Origin: Pseudomonadota bacterium
GTDB lineage: Bacteria > Pseudomonadota > Alphaproteobacteria > Rhizobiales > Xanthobacteraceae
Reading direction: 5' to 3'
Assembly (NCBI GenBank): GCA_963204905.1
Contig: CAUJJN010000241.1
Span: 1 to 64,000, forward strand
Length of the DNA stretch: 64,000 nucleotides
The notes under the pieces are model-generated. The model saw nothing but the letters and a program-made list of their open reading frames with translations, ran no database searches and was not told where the DNA came from. Shown here in pieces: positions 30,272 to 41,297 of this stretch; positions within the stretch are counted from its first letter, which is position 1, and each line of letters begins with the position of its first letter. The position numbers and the translations under genes are program-made.

Positions 30272-30610
30272 CTAGTGACTGATCATCCAGGGCCGTGCGG
30301 TCGGAAAGCCCTTTGCTCCGCCCTTTGTCTTGGTCATCAAACGTGACGGCTTTCCGGAACAGCAACCGCAGCCCGGGCCGTGCGAAGCCTTGTACTCGTC
30401 GAGCGTCTTCGGTGCGTGCGCGCTGCGCTCATTGAGCGAGCGCGCCTTGCGCGTCTCCGCCGGCATGCATGAAAACCGGGGCGCCGTCAGAATGACCCGC
30501 GGTGACGCCTCGCCACAATCCGGGCAGACGTCCGGCAGCTCATATTCCGACATCGGTCGCATGTTGGTGAAAGGGCCGCAGTCGTCGCAAAGATACTCGT
30601 AGACCGGCAT
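30272..30610 (-). CDS. fmdB: FmdB-family zinc ribbon protein
   Basis: MPVYEYLCDDCGPFTNMRPMSEYELPDVCPDCGEASPRVI. Confidence 0.88.
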   Translation of the reverse strand: MPVYEYLCDDCGPFTNMRPMSEYELPDVCPDCGEASPRVILTAPRFSCMPAETRKARSLNERSAHAPKTLDEYKASHGPGCGCCSGKPSRLMTKTKGGAKGFPTARPWMISH

Positions 30611-30682
30611 ATCAACCTCGCCATCAATCGGGAGCATGAACGTGAGCGACGATTGCGCCGCCCACGTTTCTGAAGCAGTTAC

Positions 30683-31912
30683 TTACTTGTCGGGTGACAG
30701 TGGCATGTCGATGCCGCCCTTGATGTGCTTCACGGGGCCGGCGGCCGACGGCATGATATCGAAATCGAAGATTTCGGTCGGCAGATACAGGGTGGCACAG
30801 GCATTCGGAATATCAACCACGCCGGAGATGTGTCCCTGCACCGGCGCGACGCCGAGGATCGAATAGGCCTGCGCGCCGGAATAGCCGAACTTCTTCAGAT
30901 ATTCGATCGCGTTGAGGCAGGCCTGTCGATAGGCGATCTGCACATCGAGGTAGTGCTGCTTGCCGGATTCGTCGACCGAAATGCCTTCGAAAATCAGATA
31001 GTCCTTATAATTTGGCGTGATCGGTGACGGGCGGAAGATTGGGTTCTTGATGCCGTACTTCTCCATTCCGCCCTTGATCAGATCGACACGAAGATGCGTC
31101 CAGCCCGCCATCTCGATCGCGCCGCAGAACGTGATCTCGCCATCGCCCTGGCTGAAGTGCAGGTCGCCCATCGAGAGGCCTGCGCCAGGAACGTAAACCG
31201 GGAAGTAGATCTTCGAGCCGCGCGACAGATCCTTGATATCGCAATTGCCGCCGTGTTCGCGCGGCGGCACGGTGCGAGCACCCTCGGCCTGAATCTTCGA
31301 TTTGACGTCGCCGGTGGCGCGACCCGCGTGCGCGGTGCTGGCGAACGGTGGGTTGGCGAGCGGCGGCACCCGCGTCGGGTTGGTGGCGATCAGGGCAGTC
31401 TCGCGTTCGTTCCAGTTCGCCAGCATTTTCGGATCTGGCAGGCAGCCGATCAACCCAGGATGAATCAGACCGGCGAAGTTCACGCCCGGCACATGGCGCG
31501 ACGACGTATACAGCCCCTTGAAGTCCCAGATCGACTTCTGCGCCTGCGGGAAATGCTCTGTGAGGAAACCCCCGCCGTTCTGCTTGGAGAAGAAACCGTT
31601 GAAACCCCAGAGACTCTCCTTCATGGGTCCGATATCGAGCAGATCGACCACCAGCAGATCGCCCGGCTCCGCACCCTTGACCCCGATCGGTCCGGAAAGA
31701 AAATGTACCGTCGTCAGATCAATGTCACGGACGTCGTCAGCGGAATCATTATTTTTGATGAAGCCGCCGGTCCAGTCGTAGGTTTCGAGAATGAAATCGT
31801 CGCCCGGGTTAACCCACTCGACGATCGGAATATCCGGATGCCAGCGATTGTGGACCTTGTCGTTTTCGTAGGCGGGCCTGCTCAGATCGACTTTCACCAG
31901 TGTCTCAGGCAT
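30683..31912 (-). CDS. fmdA: Formamidase/acetamidase (FmdA/AmdA family)
   Basis: MPETLVKVDLSRPAYENDKVHNRWHPDIPIVEWVNPGDDFILETYDWTGG...; SRGSKIYFPVYVPGAGLSMGDLHFSQGDGEITFCGAIEMAG. Confidence 0.95.
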   Translation of the reverse strand: MPETLVKVDLSRPAYENDKVHNRWHPDIPIVEWVNPGDDFILETYDWTGGFIKNNDSADDVRDIDLTTVHFLSGPIGVKGAEPGDLLVVDLLDIGPMKESLWGFNGFFSKQNGGGFLTEHFPQAQKSIWDFKGLYTSSRHVPGVNFAGLIHPGLIGCLPDPKMLANWNERETALIATNPTRVPPLANPPFASTAHAGRATGDVKSKIQAEGARTVPPREHGGNCDIKDLSRGSKIYFPVYVPGAGLSMGDLHFSQGDGEITFCGAIEMAGWTHLRVDLIKGGMEKYGIKNPIFRPSPITPNYKDYLIFEGISVDESGKQHYLDVQIAYRQACLNAIEYLKKFGYSGAQAYSILGVAPVQGHISGVVDIPNACATLYLPTEIFDFDIMPSAAGPVKHIKGGIDMPLSPDK

Positions 31913-31940
31913 TCGGGACTCCCTTCTTGAAAAAACACGT

Positions 31941-32633
31941 TTAGACGGACAGATATTTAGCGACCTGCGCTTCATCGACGCTGTTACGCGGATCGTCGCG
32001 AACGATCTCACCGTTCTCGATCACCAGCACACGATCGGCGATGTCGAGGGCGAAGCTCAGCACCTGTTCGGACACCACGATGGACAGTCCACGCTCATCG
32101 CGGATGCGCTTCAGCGTGCGTCCCATCTCCCGAATGATCGACGGTTGAATTCCTTCGGTCGGCTCGTCCAGCAGCAGAACCTTGGGCTTGGTCGCGAGCG
32201 CCCGCGCAATGGCGAGTTGCTGCTGCTGACCGCCGGAGAGGTTACCTCCGCGCCGGTTCTTCATTTCCAGAAGCACCGGAAACAGCTCGTAGATATCGGC
32301 GGGCACCTCGCTGTCCCCGCTGGTGACGAGGCCGGTTTCGATATTCTCCTTCACTGTCATCGAGGAGAAGATCATTCGGCCTTGTGGAACGTAGGCGAGC
32401 CCCCTGGCGACGCGCTCGTAGCTTTTGAGGCCAGACACCTCCACGTCGTCCATCTTCACCGACCCGCTTTTGGTCGGAACGATCCCCATCAACGACTTCA
32501 TCAGCGTGGTTTTGCCCATGCCGTTGCGCCCCATGATGGCGACGATCTCGTTGGAGGCAACGGAGACGTTGAGACCATGCAGCACTTCGCTCTGCCCGTA
32601 AGCCACATGGAGATCCTGAATCGCAAACATCAT
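31941..32633 (-). CDS. ABC transporter ATP-binding protein (UrtE/FmdF-like)
   Basis: AIQDLHVAYGQSEVLHGLNVSV, GRNGMGKTTLMKSLMGIVP, LSGGQQQQLAIARALATKPKVLLLDEPTEGIQPSI. Confidence 0.92.
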   Translation of the reverse strand: MMFAIQDLHVAYGQSEVLHGLNVSVASNEIVAIMGRNGMGKTTLMKSLMGIVPTKSGSVKMDDVEVSGLKSYERVARGLAYVPQGRMIFSSMTVKENIETGLVTSGDSEVPADIYELFPVLLEMKNRRGGNLSGGQQQQLAIARALATKPKVLLLDEPTEGIQPSIIREMGRTLKRIRDERGLSIVVSEQVLSFALDIADRVLVIENGEIVRDDPRNSVDEAQVAKYLSV

Positions 32634-32643
32634 GCCCCCCTGT

Positions 32644-33399
32644 TCAGTGTCCGAGATAGACTTCGATGACCTTCGGATCGTTCTTGACAGTCTCCATGGA
32701 GCCCTCGGAAAGAATCTTGCCTTGATGAAGAACGGTAACCTTGTGGGCGATGTCCTCGACGAACTTCATGTCGTGCTCGATCACCAGCACCGACCGGTTC
32801 TTGATGATCCGGTTCAGCAGTTCGGCGGTTTTCACGCGCTCGCTGACGCTCATGCCGGCCACCGGTTCGTCGAGCATCAACAACTCGGGATCCTGAATCA
32901 GCAGCATCCCGATTTCGAGCCATTGCTTCTGCCCGTGGCTCAGCAGGTCGGCCGTCGTATCGAGACGGTCCTTGAGAAAGATCATCTCCGCGACTTCCTC
33001 GACGCGCTCCCGAACAGCCTGATCGCGCTGGAAGGTCAAGGCTCCAAACACGGTGCGTCCGCGCGGGAAGGAAATCTCGAGATTCTCGAAGACGGTCAGA
33101 TCCTCGTAGATCGACGGCGTCTGAAACTTGCGGCCGACGCCGGCCTGGACGATCTGGTTCTCCTTGAGCCTGGTCAGCTCCTTGCCGCGAAACTGGATCG
33201 AACCCGAGGTCGCTTTGGTCTTGCCGCAGATCAAATCGAGCACAGTGGTCTTGCCGGCGCCGTTCGGGCCGATGATGACGCGGATTTCGTTCTCGTCGAC
33301 GTAGAACGAAAGATCGCTCACCGCCTTGAAGCCGTCGAACGATACGGTCAGCGCCTCGACCGCGAGCAGGAAATCCTTGGGTTGACTGCCGATCAGCAT
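32644..33399 (-). CDS. ABC transporter ATP-binding protein (UrtD-like)
   Basis: GPNGAGKTTVLDLICGKTKATSG, LSHGQKQWLEIGMLLIQDPELLMLDEPVAGMS is the UrtD-type signature. Confidence 0.93.
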   Translation of the reverse strand: MLIGSQPKDFLLAVEALTVSFDGFKAVSDLSFYVDENEIRVIIGPNGAGKTTVLDLICGKTKATSGSIQFRGKELTRLKENQIVQAGVGRKFQTPSIYEDLTVFENLEISFPRGRTVFGALTFQRDQAVRERVEEVAEMIFLKDRLDTTADLLSHGQKQWLEIGMLLIQDPELLMLDEPVAGMSVSERVKTAELLNRIIKNRSVLVIEHDMKFVEDIAHKVTVLHQGKILSEGSMETVKNDPKVIEVYLGH

Positions 33400-33408
33400 G
33401 GGTGCCTC

Positions 33409-34554
33409 CTATTCCGCTGGTGCGCCGTTGGTCACAGGGGGATCGATCAGATCGCCGGTCTTGCGGTTGGCGCGAGAGAACAAACGCTCAATCCTGCCCT
33501 GGACGTGGTCGCGCCAAATTCCGGCCAGTCCGCTGGGGAAGATCAGAACGACGGCAATGAACAGTGCACCGAGGCCAAACAGCCAAAGTTCAGGGAAAGA
33601 TTCGGAGAGGCTGGTCTTGGCGAAATTCACCAGCAGAGTGCCGTAAACCGCGCCGAAGATCGAAAGCCGTCCGCCGACCGCCGTGTAGATCACCATTTCA
33701 ATCGAGGGGACGATGCCGACGAAGGATGGTGACATGAAGCCGACCTCCAGCGTGAACAGCGCACCGCCGATGGCCGCGAACACGGCCGCGATGCAGAAAG
33801 CAAAGATCTTGAAGTTCGCGACGCTATAGCCGGAGAAGCGGACCCGGTCTTCCTTCTCGCGCATCGCCACGAGAATGCGACCGAGCTTCGAATGTCGGAT
33901 GTATTGTGCGACGCCGACACAACCAAGCAGGCAGACCACTTCGACGAAGTAGAGGATAAACTTCGCATTATCGGTCCGGATATCCCAACCATGCAGCGTG
34001 CGGAGATCGGTGATGCCGTTGACGCCGCCGGTGTAGCCCTGCTGACCAATGATGAGGATCGTGAGGATTGCTGCGATAGCCTGGGTGATGATGGCGAAAT
34101 AGACGCCGCCGACACGGCGTTTGAACATCGCCGCACCGATGATGAAGGCGAAGATTGCCGGCACCACGATGATTGCGATGATCGTGAAGGTCAGGCTGTG
34201 AAATGGTTTCCAGAAGAACGGGAGCGATGTGATCTGATTCCAGTCCATGAAGTCCGGAATTCCGGGGGTCGACTGGATCTTGGTATTCTCGACGCTTGAC
34301 GCCTCAAGCTTCAGGAACATCGCCATGCAGTATCCGCCGAGGCCGAAGAAGACGCCCTGGCCAAGGCTTAGAATGCCGCCATAACCCCAGCATATCACCA
34401 GGCCTAGCGCCACGAAGGCGTAGGTCAGATACTTCGCGACCAGATTCAGGCGGAAGATGTCCAGCGACAGTGGAAGCACCACGATCAGGAATGCCGCCAG
34501 CACCAGGAAGCCGATGAATTCGGAACGATTGAACAGGCGAGGATTGTCGGACAT
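33409..34554 (-). CDS. ABC transporter permease (UrtC-like)
   Basis: GLVICWGYGGILSLGQGVFFGLGGYCMAMFLKLEA ... IPSIEMVIYTAVGGRLSIFGAVYGTLLVNFAKTSLSE. Confidence 0.93.
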   Translation of the reverse strand: MSDNPRLFNRSEFIGFLVLAAFLIVVLPLSLDIFRLNLVAKYLTYAFVALGLVICWGYGGILSLGQGVFFGLGGYCMAMFLKLEASSVENTKIQSTPGIPDFMDWNQITSLPFFWKPFHSLTFTIIAIIVVPAIFAFIIGAAMFKRRVGGVYFAIITQAIAAILTILIIGQQGYTGGVNGITDLRTLHGWDIRTDNAKFILYFVEVVCLLGCVGVAQYIRHSKLGRILVAMREKEDRVRFSGYSVANFKIFAFCIAAVFAAIGGALFTLEVGFMSPSFVGIVPSIEMVIYTAVGGRLSIFGAVYGTLLVNFAKTSLSESFPELWLFGLGALFIAVVLIFPSGLAGIWRDHVQGRIERLFSRANRKTGDLIDPPVTNGAPAE

Positions 34555-34569
34555 GGTCGCTCCAGCCGT

Positions 34570-35496
34570 TTACTTGCGAACCTTGAGGGCGAACAGGCCT
34601 TGAGGCCGCAGCATCAGAATTCCGACGATCGCCAGCAGCGTGATGACCTGCGCCATCGAACCGGACAGGAAGAACTCCAGCGTCGAGCGGGCCTGTGAGA
34701 TGGTGAACGCGGAAGCGATCGTACCGAACAGACTGGCCGCGCCGCCAAAGACGACCACGAGGAAAGTATCGACGATATAAAGCTGCCCCGAGGTCGGCCC
34801 GGTCGAGCCGATCATGGTGAACGCGCTGCCGGCGACGCCAGCAATGCCGCAACCCAATCCGAAAGTGTAACGGTCCACCTTTTCGGTATTGATGCCGACC
34901 GCGCCGGCCATGGCGCGATTTTGCACCACCGCGCGAACCTGCTTGCCCCAGCGCGACTTGTAGAGGATATAGGCCACCGCGATGGTAATCAGGATCGTCA
35001 ACGCCATGACGAACATGCCGTTGATCGGAATCTGAATGCTGTCGGTCACCTGCCACGATCCCATCATCCATTCCGGAAGCTCGACGCCGACTTCGCGTGC
35101 GCCGAAGATGGAGCGGTAGGCCTGCTGGAGAATGAGGCTCAGTCCCCACGTCGCCAGTAACGTGTCCAGCGGTCGCTTGTAGAGATGGCGTATCAACGCC
35201 CACTCCACCAGCATTCCGAGCGCGCCTGCCGCGACGAATGCGACGATCATGGCGACGAAGAAGTATCCAGAGAACAGCGAAGGCAGATAGTTCTGGAAAA
35301 ACCCGGATGTCATCCAGGTCATGTAGGCCCCGAGGATCATGAACTCGCCATGGGCCATGTTGATGACGCCCATCTGGCCGAAAATGATCGCAAGGCCCAG
35401 CGCCATCAGCACGAAGACGGAGAACAGGATCAATCCTGCGAAGCCCTGCATCACGAAAATTGAACTGAGATCAGCAAGCGAATAATCGCCGAACAT
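34570..35496 (-). CDS. ABC transporter permease (UrtB-like)
   Basis: GQMGVINMAHGEFMILGAYMTW, VFGGAASLFGTIASAFTISQARSTLEFFLSGSMAQV; start MFGDYS. Confidence 0.92.
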   Translation of the reverse strand: MFGDYSLADLSSIFVMQGFAGLILFSVFVLMALGLAIIFGQMGVINMAHGEFMILGAYMTWMTSGFFQNYLPSLFSGYFFVAMIVAFVAAGALGMLVEWALIRHLYKRPLDTLLATWGLSLILQQAYRSIFGAREVGVELPEWMMGSWQVTDSIQIPINGMFVMALTILITIAVAYILYKSRWGKQVRAVVQNRAMAGAVGINTEKVDRYTFGLGCGIAGVAGSAFTMIGSTGPTSGQLYIVDTFLVVVFGGAASLFGTIASAFTISQARSTLEFFLSGSMAQVITLLAIVGILMLRPQGLFALKVRK

Positions 35497-35523
35497 GAAT
35501 CGCTCTCCTGCCTTCAAGGGGTG

Positions 35524-35557
35524 CCCCGCGCCGCGAACAGATGGACCCGGCGCGGGG
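35524..35557 (-). other. Intercistronic hairpin between substrate-binding gene and permease
   Basis: Perfect 10-bp arms CCCCGCGCCG ... CGGCGCGGGG with 14-nt loop and no T-tract. Confidence 0.6.
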
Positions 35558-35599
35558 TAAGGGTGCGGCCCTATTCGGCCACACCGGGAGAGGAAGGAC

Positions 35600-36862
35600 C
35601 TACTGGTAGCCCTTGGGGAACGGATCGGGTTCGACCAGATCCTTGGTTTCGTAGATCAGTTCGAATTGTCCGTCCGTTTTGGCTCGGCCCACGCGCGTCT
35701 TCGACCAGAGATGATGATTCTCGTGGATTCGGACGTAGCCTTCCGGCGCACCCTTGAATTCGACGCCGGGTGACGCCGCCGCGATCTTGTCGATATCGAA
35801 CGACCCTGCTTTCTCCGCTGTCAGCTTCCACAGGTGCGGACCGAGATAGGCAGCCTGCGTGACGTCGCCGATCACGGTCTTCGGGCCCCACATCTTGTGG
35901 AAGGCCTCGACGAACGCCTTGTTGTTCGGATTATCGAGCGACTGGAAATATTTCATGCAAGCATAGGCGCCCGCGATATTTTCACCGCCGATGCCGTCGA
36001 TTTCGTCTTCGGTCACCGAGATGGTGAGCAGCGTCTGCTTCGACAGATCGATGCCCGCAGCCTTGAGCTGCTTGTAAAACGCGACGTTCGAGCCACCAAC
36101 GATGATCGCGTAGATGACATCGGGTTTCTTCAGCTTGATCTTGTTGATGACGGAATTGAACTGGGTATGACCGAGCGGGAAGTATTCCTCGCCGACCACC
36201 TTGCAGTCCGTAAGATGGCTTTCGATGTGCTTGCGCGCGATCTTGTTGGAGGTGCGCGGCCAGATGTAGTCGGACCCAAGCAGATAGAAGCTCTTGGCCC
36301 CCTTGGTCTTGTTCACCCAGTCGAGGCCGGCGATGATCTGCTGAGTCGCTTCCTGGCCGGTGTAAATGACGTTCTTCGACTGCTCGAGACCTTCGTAGAA
36401 GGTCGGGTAATAGAGCATCCCATTGTACTGCTCGAATACCGGCAGCACGGCCTTGCGGGATGCCGACGTCCAGCAGCCGAACACGGCGGCGCACTTGTCG
36501 TTGACGAGCAGCTTCTTCGCCTTCTCGGCGAAGGTCGGCCAATCGCTGGCGCCATCTTCCTGAATGAATTTGATCTTCCGCCCGAGCACGCCGCCGGATG
36601 CGTTGATCTGTTCAATGGCCAGCTTTTCCGCTTCCACCGAGCCGGTCTCGGAAATCGCCATGGTGCCGGTGACCGAGTGCAGAATGCCTACGGTCACCTC
36701 GCTGTCGGTCACCGCCAGCCCGGTGGTGTTGATGGCGGAGGTGGCAGGAACATCGGCCAGCGCCTGCCGCGGAAGGAGCGACAGCGCCGGCAGCGCCGCC
36801 ATCCCCATCAAGAGTTTGCGTCGGAATGGCGATTCCAGAATCGGTCGTTTCTCGTCTGACAT
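35600..36862 (-). CDS. ABC transporter substrate-binding protein (UrtA/FmdD/AmiC-like) with Tat-type signal
   Basis: FRRKLLMGMAALPALSLLPRQALA signal; TVGILHSVTGTMAISETGSVEAEKLAIEQINASGGVLGRKI; start MSDEKRP. Confidence 0.93.
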   Translation of the reverse strand: MSDEKRPILESPFRRKLLMGMAALPALSLLPRQALADVPATSAINTTGLAVTDSEVTVGILHSVTGTMAISETGSVEAEKLAIEQINASGGVLGRKIKFIQEDGASDWPTFAEKAKKLLVNDKCAAVFGCWTSASRKAVLPVFEQYNGMLYYPTFYEGLEQSKNVIYTGQEATQQIIAGLDWVNKTKGAKSFYLLGSDYIWPRTSNKIARKHIESHLTDCKVVGEEYFPLGHTQFNSVINKIKLKKPDVIYAIIVGGSNVAFYKQLKAAGIDLSKQTLLTISVTEDEIDGIGGENIAGAYACMKYFQSLDNPNNKAFVEAFHKMWGPKTVIGDVTQAAYLGPHLWKLTAEKAGSFDIDKIAAASPGVEFKGAPEGYVRIHENHHLWSKTRVGRAKTDGQFELIYETKDLVEPDPFPKGYQ

Positions 36863-36920
36863 GGATACCCCGCTTGGTTTGCCAAAGGTGCTTATCGATA
36901 AGGCGAGGATGCCCAACATT

Positions 36921-36958
36921 GTGCACTGCACGCATACGCAAGATCGCGTATACTGCAC
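36921..36958. promoter_or_regulatory. Candidate operator in divergent urtA-like / sensor-kinase promoter
   Basis: Inverted repeat ATACGC-AAGATC-GCGTAT (36934-36951) flanked by direct repeats ACTGCAC (36925-36931 and 36952-36958). Confidence 0.45.
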
Positions 36959-37009
36959 CGCAAAATCGCGGTGTAGGTTCCGGACAAAGGTAACGGGAGA
37001 TAGTCTCGG

Positions 37010-40000
37010 TTGGCAGGACGTCAGCAGATAGACCGGGTCAGACGGCAATATAATCAATGGGTTGCCAACCAGACCCTGGAGGATTACGCGCTGCGGTTCA
37101 CAGCCAAAAGCGCGCGGCGCTGGTCTGCCGCCAGGGTTGCCAACACCGCTCTTGGTGCCATTTCATTTCTTGCCCTTGAGGCGATCGGGGGCACGATTAC
37201 CCTCAAGTATGGCGTCACAAATGCCGCCGCGGCGATCGCGGTGGTCAGCCTGATTATTTTCGCCTGCGGACTTCCGATCGCTTACCATGCCGCGAAAGCG
37301 GGTGTGGATATCGACCTGCTGACGCGCGGCGCCGGCTTCGGCTACATCGGCTCGACGATCACCTCGTTGATCTACGCGACCTTCACATTCATCTTTTTCG
37401 CGCTCGAAGCCGTAATCCTCGCGATGGCGCTGGAATTGTGTTTTGGCATCCCGCGCCCGATCGGCTACCTCGTCAGCGCGGTGGTCATCATTCCGCTGGT
37501 GACGCACGGCATCACGCTGATCAGCCGCTTCCAGCTCTGGACCCAGCCGCTCTGGATCATCCTGCATATCCTGCCGTTTGCGGCGATCGCCTTCAAAAGC
37601 CGCGACTCTTTCGTGGCATGGACGCAATTTTCCGGTGAGCACGGCGGCCCGCCGGGGCAACTTGATTTGCTGATGTTCGGAGCGGCAGCGTCGGTGGTGT
37701 TCTCGCTGGTGGCGCAAATCGGCGAGCAGGTCGACTTCCTCAGGTTTCTTCCACGCGATCGGCGAACATCGCGAAAGACCTGGTGGTTCGCTCTGTTGAG
37801 CGCCGGCCCGGGGTGGATCGTCATCGGCGCACTCAAATTGCTGGCAGGGTCATTCCTCGCATTCTTCGCGCTGAGCCACAGCATTCCAGCGGAACACGCC
37901 GCCGAACCGACACAGATGTATCTCGCCGCCTTTCAGTATGTGCTGTCGCAGCCTGACCTCGCGGTGGCGCTGACCGGCACCTTCGTGATCCTGTCGCAAC
38001 TCAAGATCAACGTCACCAACGCCTATGCCGGCTCGATTGCGTGGTCGAATTTCTTCTCCCGCCTCACCCATAGCCATCCGGGACGCGTGGTATGGCTGGT
38101 TTTCAACGTGGTCGTTGCCGTCCTGCTGATGGAGATCGGCGTCTACAAGGCGCTGGAACAGACACTCGCACTCTACTCGAATGTCGCGATCGCATGGGTC
38201 GGTGCGCTGGTCGCCGATCTTGTGATCAACAAGCCGCTCGGTCTGAGGCCGCCGGTAATGGATTTCAAGCGCGCGCATCTCTACGACATCAACCCAGTCG
38301 GCGTCGGCTCGATGGCGATTGCCGCCATCGTCTCGATCAGTGCGTTCTATGGAATGTTCGGCACCACCGCGAAGGCGCTTTCACCATTCGTCGCGCTCAT
38401 TGTCGCCTTCGCGACGGCGCCGACCATCGCGTGGCTTACGCAGGGAAAATACTATTTCGCGCGCAAGCCGAAGCGGAGCTGGCGAAATCTATCGCAGATC
38501 GAATGCTGTATCTGCGAGCATTCATTCGAGCCGGAGGACATGGCCTATTGTCCAGCCTATGCCGGCCCGATCTGCTCGCTGTGCTGTTCGCTGGACGCGC
38601 GCTGTCACGACATGTGCAAGCCTCATGGCGGCCTTCGTGAGCAAGCGGGTGAAGCATTGCGGAAAAGCCTTCCGGTTTCCGCGCAAGGCTACATCAATTC
38701 CCAACTCGGGCACTATCTGGTGGTGTTCGTAAGCGCCACCAGTCTGGTCGGAATGACGATGGCGCTGATCTATCTACAGACTTCGCTCGACGTCCAGATC
38801 GACAAATCCCTGCTGGCGGACGTGCTGTGGAAGGTGTTCTTTGCCCTCGTCATCATTATCGGCGTCGTCGCCTGGCTTTTTGTGCTGGCGCGCCAAAGCC
38901 GAAGGGCCGCCGAGGAAGAAACCCGCCGGCAGACCGCTTTGCTCATTCAGGAAATCGACGCGCACAAGCGGACCGACGCCGAGTTGCAACGAGCCAAGGA
39001 AGCGGCGGAATCCGCCAACCTGGCTAAGAGCCGCTATGTCGTGGGATTGAGCCACGAGTTGCGGTCGCCGCTCAATGCCATCAGCGGCTATGCGCAGTTG
39101 CTTTCGCAGGATACGTCGCTGCCGGGCAAATCGCTCGACCAGATCGGCGTCATGCGGCGTAGCGCGGATCATCTTTCGGGCTTGATCGACGGTATTCTCG
39201 ACATTTCGAAGATCGAGGCGGGGCGACTGCTTCTGGCGCGCGACGAAGTGCTGATTGGCGAATTTCTCGACCATCTGGTCGGCATGTTCCGTGTGCAGGC
39301 TGTCGCGCAGGGCATCGACTTCATTTTCGAACGGCCGGACAATCTTCCCGCGCTGGTTTATGCGGATGAAAAACGGCTGCGCCAGATTTTGATCAATCTC
39401 TTGTCCAACGCCATCAAGTTCACCGAATGCGGATCGGTCAGATTCGTCATGCGTTATCGTAACCCCGTCGCGGAGTTCGAGATCGTCGATACCGGGCCCG
39501 GAATCCCGGCTGGCGATCTGGACCGGATTTTCGCGCCGTTCGAGCGCGGCGCGCTGGGGAACACGCAGCCGCATACCGGCACAGGTCTCGGTCTGACCAT
39601 CTCGCGGTTGCTCGCCGGCGTGATGGGAGGCGACATTCGGGTGACGAGCGCGGTCGGCGTCGGCAGCACGTTCCGCGTGAAGCTGCTGTTGTCCGAGGTA
39701 ACGAACCCGACCCGCGTGGGATCAATCTCCGGTCACGTTACGGGCTATGAGGGACCGCGCAAGACCATCATCGTGACCGATGACAATCCCACGCATCGTG
39801 ACCTCATCCGTGAAGTGCTTACACCGCTTGGATTCATCATTCTCAGCGCGCACGACGCGCCGTCTTGCCTCGCTTTGGCCGCACATTGCGAACCCGATCT
39901 CTTCATTCTCGATATTTCGATGGGCGAGACCGATGGATGGGCACTGGCACAGACACTGCGGGGCAGCGGCCATCAACGTGCTCGAATCCTGATGATCTCC

Positions 40001-40381
40001 GCGAGTGCGATCGAAGCACACGGAGTTTCGTTGGCTCAGACCTACCACGACGGCTACATGATGAAGCCGATCGATGTTCGTCGCCTGCTGGAGCACATCG
40101 GTCAACTCCTGAAGATTCAATGGTTGCAGACACGCGATGGCGAACCCGATGCGACGCTGCCCCCACTGGGAGGGGCCAGGCCTTCGATGAATGACGTCGA
40201 AGAACTGAGGGAGCTGGCGCAAATCGGACACATCAAGGCCATTCAGCGAAAGCTGGACAAGCTCGACACGGATCATCCTGAGCTTGCCGCCTTCGTCGCC
40301 CGAATGCGAACACTCGTCGAACGATTCGATTTCAAGCAGTATCTGGAAACACTTCGCACCTTTGAACTTCATGACAGATGA
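37010..40381 (+). CDS. NCS1-type permease / Cys-rich domain / hybrid histidine kinase fusion with C-terminal receiver
   Basis: Residues ~1-480 multi-TM NCS1/CodB-like; CCICEHSFEPEDMAYCPAYAGPICSLCCSLDARCHDMCKP; HisKA SHELRSPLNAI; HATPase NLLSNAIKF, DTGPGIP, GTGLGLTIS; REC with LFILDISMGETDGW. TTG start at 37010 after TAACGGGAGA. Confidence 0.88.
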   Translation: MAGRQQIDRVRRQYNQWVANQTLEDYALRFTAKSARRWSAARVANTALGAISFLALEAIGGTITLKYGVTNAAAAIAVVSLIIFACGLPIAYHAAKAGVDIDLLTRGAGFGYIGSTITSLIYATFTFIFFALEAVILAMALELCFGIPRPIGYLVSAVVIIPLVTHGITLISRFQLWTQPLWIILHILPFAAIAFKSRDSFVAWTQFSGEHGGPPGQLDLLMFGAAASVVFSLVAQIGEQVDFLRFLPRDRRTSRKTWWFALLSAGPGWIVIGALKLLAGSFLAFFALSHSIPAEHAAEPTQMYLAAFQYVLSQPDLAVALTGTFVILSQLKINVTNAYAGSIAWSNFFSRLTHSHPGRVVWLVFNVVVAVLLMEIGVYKALEQTLALYSNVAIAWVGALVADLVINKPLGLRPPVMDFKRAHLYDINPVGVGSMAIAAIVSISAFYGMFGTTAKALSPFVALIVAFATAPTIAWLTQGKYYFARKPKRSWRNLSQIECCICEHSFEPEDMAYCPAYAGPICSLCCSLDARCHDMCKPHGGLREQAGEALRKSLPVSAQGYINSQLGHYLVVFVSATSLVGMTMALIYLQTSLDVQIDKSLLADVLWKVFFALVIIIGVVAWLFVLARQSRRAAEEETRRQTALLIQEIDAHKRTDAELQRAKEAAESANLAKSRYVVGLSHELRSPLNAISGYAQLLSQDTSLPGKSLDQIGVMRRSADHLSGLIDGILDISKIEAGRLLLARDEVLIGEFLDHLVGMFRVQAVAQGIDFIFERPDNLPALVYADEKRLRQILINLLSNAIKFTECGSVRFVMRYRNPVAEFEIVDTGPGIPAGDLDRIFAPFERGALGNTQPHTGTGLGLTISRLLAGVMGGDIRVTSAVGVGSTFRVKLLLSEVTNPTRVGSISGHVTGYEGPRKTIIVTDDNPTHRDLIREVLTPLGFIILSAHDAPSCLALAAHCEPDLFILDISMGETDGWALAQTLRGSGHQRARILMISASAIEAHGVSLAQTYHDGYMMKPIDVRRLLEHIGQLLKIQWLQTRDGEPDATLPPLGGARPSMNDVEELRELAQIGHIKAIQRKLDKLDTDHPELAAFVARMRTLVERFDFKQYLETLRTFELHDR

Positions 40382-41297
40382 AACAACCAGCAGCGTCGTC
40401 CTCGTCGTCGACGATTCTCCCGATACCCTGCGTATGTTGACCGATGCGCTGGATGCCGCCTCGATGACCGTCATGGTTGCGCTCGACGGCACATCGGCGA
40501 TGCGGATCGCGCAGCGGATAACGCCCGATATGATCCTTCTGGACGCGGTGATGCCGGGGCTCGACGGCTTTGAGACCTGTCGCCGTCTCAAGCGCGATCC
40601 CCGGCTGGCCGACGTGCCGGTCATTTTCATGACTGGTTTGACGGAAACCGAACACATTGTGCGCGGGCTGGAAGCCGGCGGCGTCGACTATGTCACCAAG
40701 CCCATCGTGGTGGCGGAGATGCTGGCGCGCATCAAGGTCCATCTGACCAACGCCCGCCTCACCCAGAGCGCGCGCGCCGCGCTTGATGTGTCCGGGCGTT
40801 ACCTTTTCGCCGTTGACAGGAACGGGGCGGTTGTCTGGTCGACCCCACAGGCGCAGAAGCTGCTTGCGGGAGAAACGCCCTCCGGAACGTCGGACGCCGC
40901 GTCTCCGCTGCCGGTGCCCTGGTTGCAATGGTTGCGGCACATCGCGAGCGGGCGCGCCGGAGCTGATACAGCATCGCCGGCCGCAGCCTATCGCGGAGGC
41001 TTTCAGCTCCAGTATCTCGGAATGTTTCGGACAAATGAATTCCTGCTTCAGTTGACCCCAGAAGCGGTTGCGGAAATCACCACCAACTTCAGCAAGAAAT
41101 TCGGATTGACGCCGCGCGAGGGAGAAGTCTTGTCATGGCTCAGCAAGGGCAAGACCAATCGCGACATCGCCCAGATTCTCGGGCTCAGTCCACGAACGGT
41201 CGACAAGCATCTCGAGCAGATTTACGCCAAGTTAGGGGTAGAGAACAGAACTGCGGCGGTTGCATTCGCCTCTGATGCACATCAACGACGCGGCTGA
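40371..41297 (+). CDS. Response regulator, REC + PAS-like + LuxR HTH
   Basis: VVLVVDDSPDTLRMLTDAL, MILLDAVMPGLDGFE, LTPREGEVLSWLSKGKTNRDIAQILGLSPRTVDKHLEQIYAKLGVENRT; ATG overlaps kinase stop. Confidence 0.93.
   Translation: MTDETTSSVVLVVDDSPDTLRMLTDALDAASMTVMVALDGTSAMRIAQRITPDMILLDAVMPGLDGFETCRRLKRDPRLADVPVIFMTGLTETEHIVRGLEAGGVDYVTKPIVVAEMLARIKVHLTNARLTQSARAALDVSGRYLFAVDRNGAVVWSTPQAQKLLAGETPSGTSDAASPLPVPWLQWLRHIASGRAGADTASPAAAYRGGFQLQYLGMFRTNEFLLQLTPEAVAEITTNFSKKFGLTPREGEVLSWLSKGKTNRDIAQILGLSPRTVDKHLEQIYAKLGVENRTAAVAFASDAHQRRG

Follow-up and report, generated by a model that had tools for sequence, protein, structure and literature searches.

A histidine kinase with an NCS1-like membrane domain as a candidate sensor of urea and short-chain amides

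Fusions between a carrier and a histidine kinase are already known for the SLC5-STAC proteins CbrA, CrbS and RpuS and for Amt. CrbR, a regulator of the LuxR type, uses an inverted repeat (PMC5715377), and the Amt-type ammonium sensor kinase of Kuenenia joins the fold of a nitrogen-compound transporter to a histidine kinase (PMC5764959). The fmdCABDEF cluster of Methylophilus methylotrophus combines a formamidase with high-affinity amide/urea uptake by an ATP-binding cassette (ABC) transporter; a review reports its induction by formamide and urea and names a putative positive regulator, not a sensor kinase (PMC10781810). Here we describe a locus in a Xanthobacteraceae contig (CAUJJN010000241.1, assembly GCA_963204905.1), of which the first 64,000 nucleotides, called the window below, were analysed. 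A hybrid sensor histidine kinase with an NCS1-like membrane domain and a REC-LuxR response regulator are encoded there, divergently from a urt/fmd operon. We consider it likely that they form a two-component system in which an NCS1-fold permease domain for urea and short-chain amides, fused to the kinase, controls the amide/urea uptake and formamidase genes. The openly licensed literature yielded neither an NCS1-kinase fusion nor a formamide or urea sensor kinase, an absence that is no proof of novelty.

The kinase of the window resembles CbrA and CrbS in the fusion of a carrier domain to a kinase and in having a cognate regulator. It differs in that the sensor is NCS1-like, not SLC5, and is followed by a Cys-rich module and two extra transmembrane (TM) helices, with no STAC domain identified. 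The boxes differ as well (the ACTU motif, such as TACTACCATCGTCGAAT, in those systems and the predicted TACGY-N6-RCGTA here), as do the target genes. The Kuenenia kinase has an Amt/Rh fold, another ligand and another gene neighbourhood.

The open reading frame (ORF) of the kinase begins with TTG, with an in-frame TAG at 37001 and a GGGAGA Shine-Dalgarno sequence at 36995. Pfam identified HisKA at residues 673-738 (E 1e-15), HATPase_c at 786-894 (1.9e-25) and REC at 920-1030 (9.2e-17); the H-, N-, G1- and G2-boxes and Asp968 of the receiver are all intact, as in a hybrid histidine kinase. Within residues 1-655 Pfam gave nothing above the cut-off. Hydropathy revealed two extra hydrophobic segments (568-590 and 597-631), corresponding to predicted helices 565-594 and 599-654; these TM helices and then a long helix connect the Cys-rich module to the kinase core. 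Pfam found no SSF (SLC5) domain in the kinase, and NCS1 structures outranked SLC5 ones in the fold search. Neither the kinase nor its homologues had a Pfam match to STAC; the region in question is rich in Cys and was modelled with low confidence. The architecture of carrier-like membrane domain, eight-Cys module, two TM helices, HisKA/HATPase and REC is thus confirmed, and it bears out the outline that a first-pass annotation of the DNA had given. The family was present in 65 of 398 genomes of the phylum at E<1e-100 with strongly conserved gene order, far beyond chance.

The same annotation had called the N-terminus an apparently complete NCS1 carrier and had staked its reading on an NCS1 match there. 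PF02133, the NCS1 model of Pfam, matched neither the kinase protein nor its 27 homologues nor any protein of its own genome, and no PDB sequence was matched by the N-terminus in phmmer/hmmsearch; profile-profile and fold comparison were therefore used. When 32 family members were aligned by hhalign with 29 ORFs from PF02133-matching loci, about three of which were wrongly picked and added noise, the NCS1 set was matched with a probability of 99.0% (E 9.3e-18, 420 columns). An AlphaFold model was built from 27 sequences (predicted local distance difference test, pLDDT, 74; predicted template modelling score 0.73). Its five best Foldseek matches in the PDB were all CodB or Mhp1 (three Mhp1 entries), ahead of other APC-fold carriers, with target TM-scores of 0.62-0.75 and E values of 1.1e-8 to 2.1e-7. 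The NCS1 signatures R-x2-(F)G-x2-G and D-F-x-R-F align with the sensor domain. Among the relatives, the kinase-free L125 (44% identical) matched a cytosine-permease model weakly (2.3e-6), and only the distant L168 (25% identical) reached PF02133 (3.6e-9; TIGR00800, 2.5e-16). Profile and predicted fold thus point, at the level of remote homology, to an NCS1-like domain of an outlying branch that is not filed under PF02133. From CodB, Mhp1 and the rest of the NCS1 family the sensor differs in lying beyond the Pfam model, in its Cys-rich tail, in its urea/amide context and at the Na2 site.

At that site the Thr-Thr-Asn of CodB, with the Asn in TM8, aligns with Lys332-Ile333-Asn334, so that the Ser/Thr pair is absent; with this, and with Pfam missing the domain, "complete" is a word to use with care for the carrier. 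Lys occupies position 332 in all full-length members examined in the alignment. Some NCS1 subgroups likewise lack the pair, having GIN, and a Lys (K196) is found at the Na2 site of CbrA, too (PMC13022988). The lysine at the old Na2 site suggests that the domain may operate independently of Na+.

The genes beside the kinase suggest what its ligand may be. FmdA scored above cut-off in 44 of the 398 phylum genomes, 43 of which had the kinase (Fisher 5e-40); of 150 genomes sampled from the same family, 46 had FmdA and 45 of these the kinase as well (Fisher 1.8e-33). These values, like the box counts given below, overstate independence since the genomes and loci are related. The gene order of the window recurs in the majority of the 80 closest GTDB loci and is conserved across alpha-, beta- and gammaproteobacteria, which bears out the predicted recurrent association with amide/urea genes. 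Kinases without FmdA mostly adjoin urt and/or urease genes, or the unrelated formamidase AmiF. A Methylovirgula locus has fmdAB without urt, a Klebsiella plasmid locus has urt with AmiF, and in Methylosinus and Sphingobium urt and urease genes stand beside the kinase. On the kinase tree the urease context requires about eight changes.

A search of the 398 phylum genomes for relatives of the carrier domain without a kinase returned kinase fusions only. Elsewhere such stand-alone proteins, labelled "allantoin/cytosine permease" in databases, share the Cx2C...CSLC tail; Acinetobacter L123 and Streptomyces L125 are 44-46% identical to the carrier domain of the sensor. They adjoin urease genes in Acinetobacter and Klebsiella, fmdA/fmdB in Moraxella and Tsukamurella, and the aliphatic amidase gene amiE in one Arthrobacter region; neither the Streptomyces regions nor another Arthrobacter region had a urease, fmd or amidase neighbour. 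The common denominator of the neighbourhoods is urea and short-chain amides. Since kinase-free relatives stand beside urease, FmdA or AmiE, these compounds are likelier ligands than nucleobases. The sensor might still recognise a nucleobase, hydantoin or allantoin-type compound, with the amide genes acting downstream of its catabolism, as the closest solved folds (CodB for cytosine, Mhp1 for hydantoin) and the permease labels would suggest. The labels are based on similarity alone, however; fused and kinase-free forms recur beside urt, fmdA, amiF, amiE and urease genes, and no recurrence of genes for nucleobase, hydantoin or allantoin catabolism was seen in the annotated neighbour regions. We therefore regard this explanation as highly improbable, and of the formamide/urea/nucleobase-like ligand proposed at first only the amide and urea part finds support.

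Promoter comparison identified a candidate operator. The TACGY-N6-RCGTA dyad lies about 60 bp ahead of the kinase start and 72 bp ahead of the urtA ATG. In 163 kinase loci, many of them close relatives, 118 of 139 copies fell in the 800 bp that precede the kinase gene, as against 21 at other places in 3.35 Mb (0.905 versus 0.0065 sites/kb). Other spacings yielded 0-1 upstream sites, enrichment being seen for spacing 6 only, and none of the 23 alternative arrangements of the letters T, A, C and G gave more than six sites, so that only the TACG half-site was enriched. Of 39 full-length fmd loci in a diverse set, 35 had at least one box. Among the copies elsewhere, eight precede fmdA by 55-115 bp in loci where that gene forms a unit of its own, one precedes amiE by 142 bp (Methylovirgula), and two are found some 200-240 bp ahead of the earliest stretch of urtA that aligned. 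The dyad is probably the box of the REC-LuxR regulator, and direct binding is what we infer from its distribution. The pattern has a single exact match in the window and only four more in 4.27 Mb, so the predicted regulon is small here.

Control of the adjacent operon, as first proposed, is supported comparatively by the co-occurrence with FmdA and by the box in the shared promoter and before relocated fmdA genes. The kinase-regulator pair could instead be merely co-inherited with the amide genes and control something else: shared horizontal transfer alone can give close linkage, and six genomes of the same genus lack the kinase. This can hardly be credited, because the box tracks fmdA, amiE or urtA where these sit elsewhere in the locus, and the association survives where the formamidase is a non-homologous one or the partner is urease.

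In the mechanism that we propose, the carrier-like domain would bind, and perhaps transport, formamide, urea or a close analogue, and its conformational state would be relayed via the Cys-rich module, the two extra TM helices and the coiled coil to the HisKA/HATPase core, so that the ligand-dependent state of the carrier would set kinase activity. The REC-LuxR regulator would be phosphorylated by the kinase, either directly or in equilibrium with the REC domain of the kinase itself. The regulator would bind TACGY-N6-RCGTA in the divergent promoter, or elsewhere before fmdA, amiE or urtA, and control the genes of the amide/urea ABC transporter and formamidase. Activation by substrate is proposed by analogy, because the Methylophilus fmd cluster is reported to be induced by formamide and urea (PMC10781810).

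The Cys-rich module, residues 499-536, has the pattern C-x2-C-x11-C-x7-C-x2-CC-x5-C-x3-C, and its cysteines are invariant or near-invariant across the 27 homologues. Family searches with it returned only weak, chance-level zinc-finger matches, none convincing; on a plain reading the module is probably zinc-binding, and its part in signalling would be that of a relay. Alternatively, the NCS1 domain might not be the primary detector, and the system might read ammonium or nitrogen status, carrier flux, or metal or redox state via the eight cysteines. The motif is indeed strongly conserved in full-length members, including four Cys missing from the kinase-free Acinetobacter protein, and the Methylophilus fmd genes are also repressed by ammonia (PMC10781810). 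Its core Cx2C...CSLC is retained in kinase-free permeases, however, and is thus a motif of the carrier family and not only of signalling. Conservation is high over the carrier region (mean column identity 83% in A1), and the partner genes are substrate-specific. We judge this alternative unlikely.

Against the two-component system proposed here weigh, besides the relatedness of the genomes, several results. The confidence of the AlphaFold model is only moderate, at about 55-63 in the Cys region. The box is missing in four of the 39 diverse fmd loci, in all four loci of a shorter kinase form and in most urease-linked loci. At two diverse kinase loci, L137 and L142, urt, fmd and urease genes are all missing from the surroundings. 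A sensor domain for urea and short-chain amides remains the reading that we favour. A broader proposal, which we hold tentatively and would put at slightly under an even chance, is that a so far unrecognised NCS1-fold branch carrying these compounds, probably without sodium via the Na2-site lysine, became a widespread family of transceptors linked to either of two kinase modules, acting through a portable TACGY-N6-RCGTA box on formamide/urea assimilation. Should the favoured reading be correct, formamide/urea-inducible genes would gain a sensor, the NCS1 fold would join the small number of carriers known to be coupled to kinases, and the "allantoin/cytosine permease" label would need correcting for a carrier family that occurs beside urease, in Klebsiella and Acinetobacter among others. 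The operator site is predicted exactly, which would make the regulon directly testable.

Table 1. Features of the kinase locus, with positions in the window
Feature	Position	Strand	Evidence
fmdB-type zinc ribbon / RPWMISH protein	30272..30637	-	NF053663, TIGR02605
fmdA formamidase	30683..31930	-	NF045496 759 bits (cut-off 500), FmdA_AmdA 2.1e-183; listed ORF reaches 32011
urtE-like ATPase	31941..32633	-	TIGR03410
urtD-like ATPase	32644..33399	-	TIGR03411
urtC-like permease	33409..34554	-	TIGR03408
urtB-like permease	34570..35517	-	TIGR03409
urtA/FmdD-like substrate-binding protein	35600..36862	-	TIGR03407 549.5 bits (cut-off 492.75); likely start ATG 36862
Predicted regulator box TACGCAAGATCGCGTA (TACGY-N6-RCGTA dyad)	36935..36950		promoter comparison
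Hybrid sensor histidine kinase with NCS1-like membrane domain, 1123 aa	37010..40381	+	ORF call, Pfam, motifs
NCS1-like carrier domain, aa 1-490	37010..38479	+	hhalign, Foldseek
Cys-rich module, probably zinc-binding, aa 499-536	38504..38617	+	homologue alignment
Two further TM helices ahead of coiled coil, aa 568-631	38711..38902	+	hydropathy, predicted helices
HisKA + HATPase_c, aa 673-894, His682	39026..39691	+	Pfam; H/N/G1/G2 boxes
Receiver domain, aa 920-1030, Asp968	39767..40099	+	Pfam, motif
REC-LuxR response regulator, 308 aa, Asp58	40371..41297	+	Pfam, motif

The regulator has REC (2.5e-26) and GerE/LuxR helix-turn-helix (2.6e-19) domains by Pfam, as in NarL/LuxR response regulators, and its phospho-acceptor Asp58 is intact. 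Its most likely start, ATG 40371, gives an 11-nt overlap with the end of the kinase gene. The REC and LuxR domains and the overlap agree with the REC-PAS-LuxR gene described at first; the PAS domain does not, none being detected by Pfam in the middle of the protein.

On the other side of the promoter the urtA/fmdD-like, urtBCDE-like, fmdA and fmdB genes were found as predicted, UrtABCDE and FmdA being NCBIfam equivalog matches as in Urt/Fmd amide-urea operons. A second urtB of the same genome (G000:C32:19207-20079) outscored that of the window on the UrtB model, and a search of this genome, 87% complete, turned up no urease alpha subunit. Both results fit, but do not prove, a urt copy dedicated to amides in the window. 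The six genomes of the same genus without the kinase also lack an above-cut-off FmdA; the cluster at 30272-41297 may have been acquired horizontally, or the contig may be misbinned (genome contamination 5.75%).

A shorter form of about 890 aa (L164, L167, L176, L177) forms a separate clade with support 100. It keeps the carrier, the Cys-rich module and the TM linker; what has changed is the kinase core, with at most 30% identity, and REC is absent. These loci carry fmdA/fmdB and a different regulator gene. The simplest reading is that the kinase was swapped behind a fixed sensor.

In the urease-only class a conserved dyad was looked for and not found. Six urease-linked kinase genes without the box (L144, L146, L156, L157, L158, L160) have sigma-54-like TGGCAC/TGGCAT-N5-TGCA sequences upstream, which suggest that general nitrogen control may operate in that clade.

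The kinase family is common in GTDB, in the phylum genomes and on plasmids: the GTDB scan gave at least 586 related stretches, and 527 plasmid records matched the carrier domain, 342 of them from Klebsiella. A conjugative IncFIB/IncFII Klebsiella plasmid (L126, AP022158.1) carries a urt-amiF-kinase-regulator cluster near clpK/hsp20 heat-tolerance genes. Another Klebsiella record (L242 1853-8563, CP125156.1) has a permease annotated as "cytosine permease" directly 3' of urease genes; the label is probably wrong and the protein a urea/amide permease. In Methylovirgula (L122 16652-18331) a kinase-free carrier-Cys copy stands beside the kinase-regulator pair and amiE.

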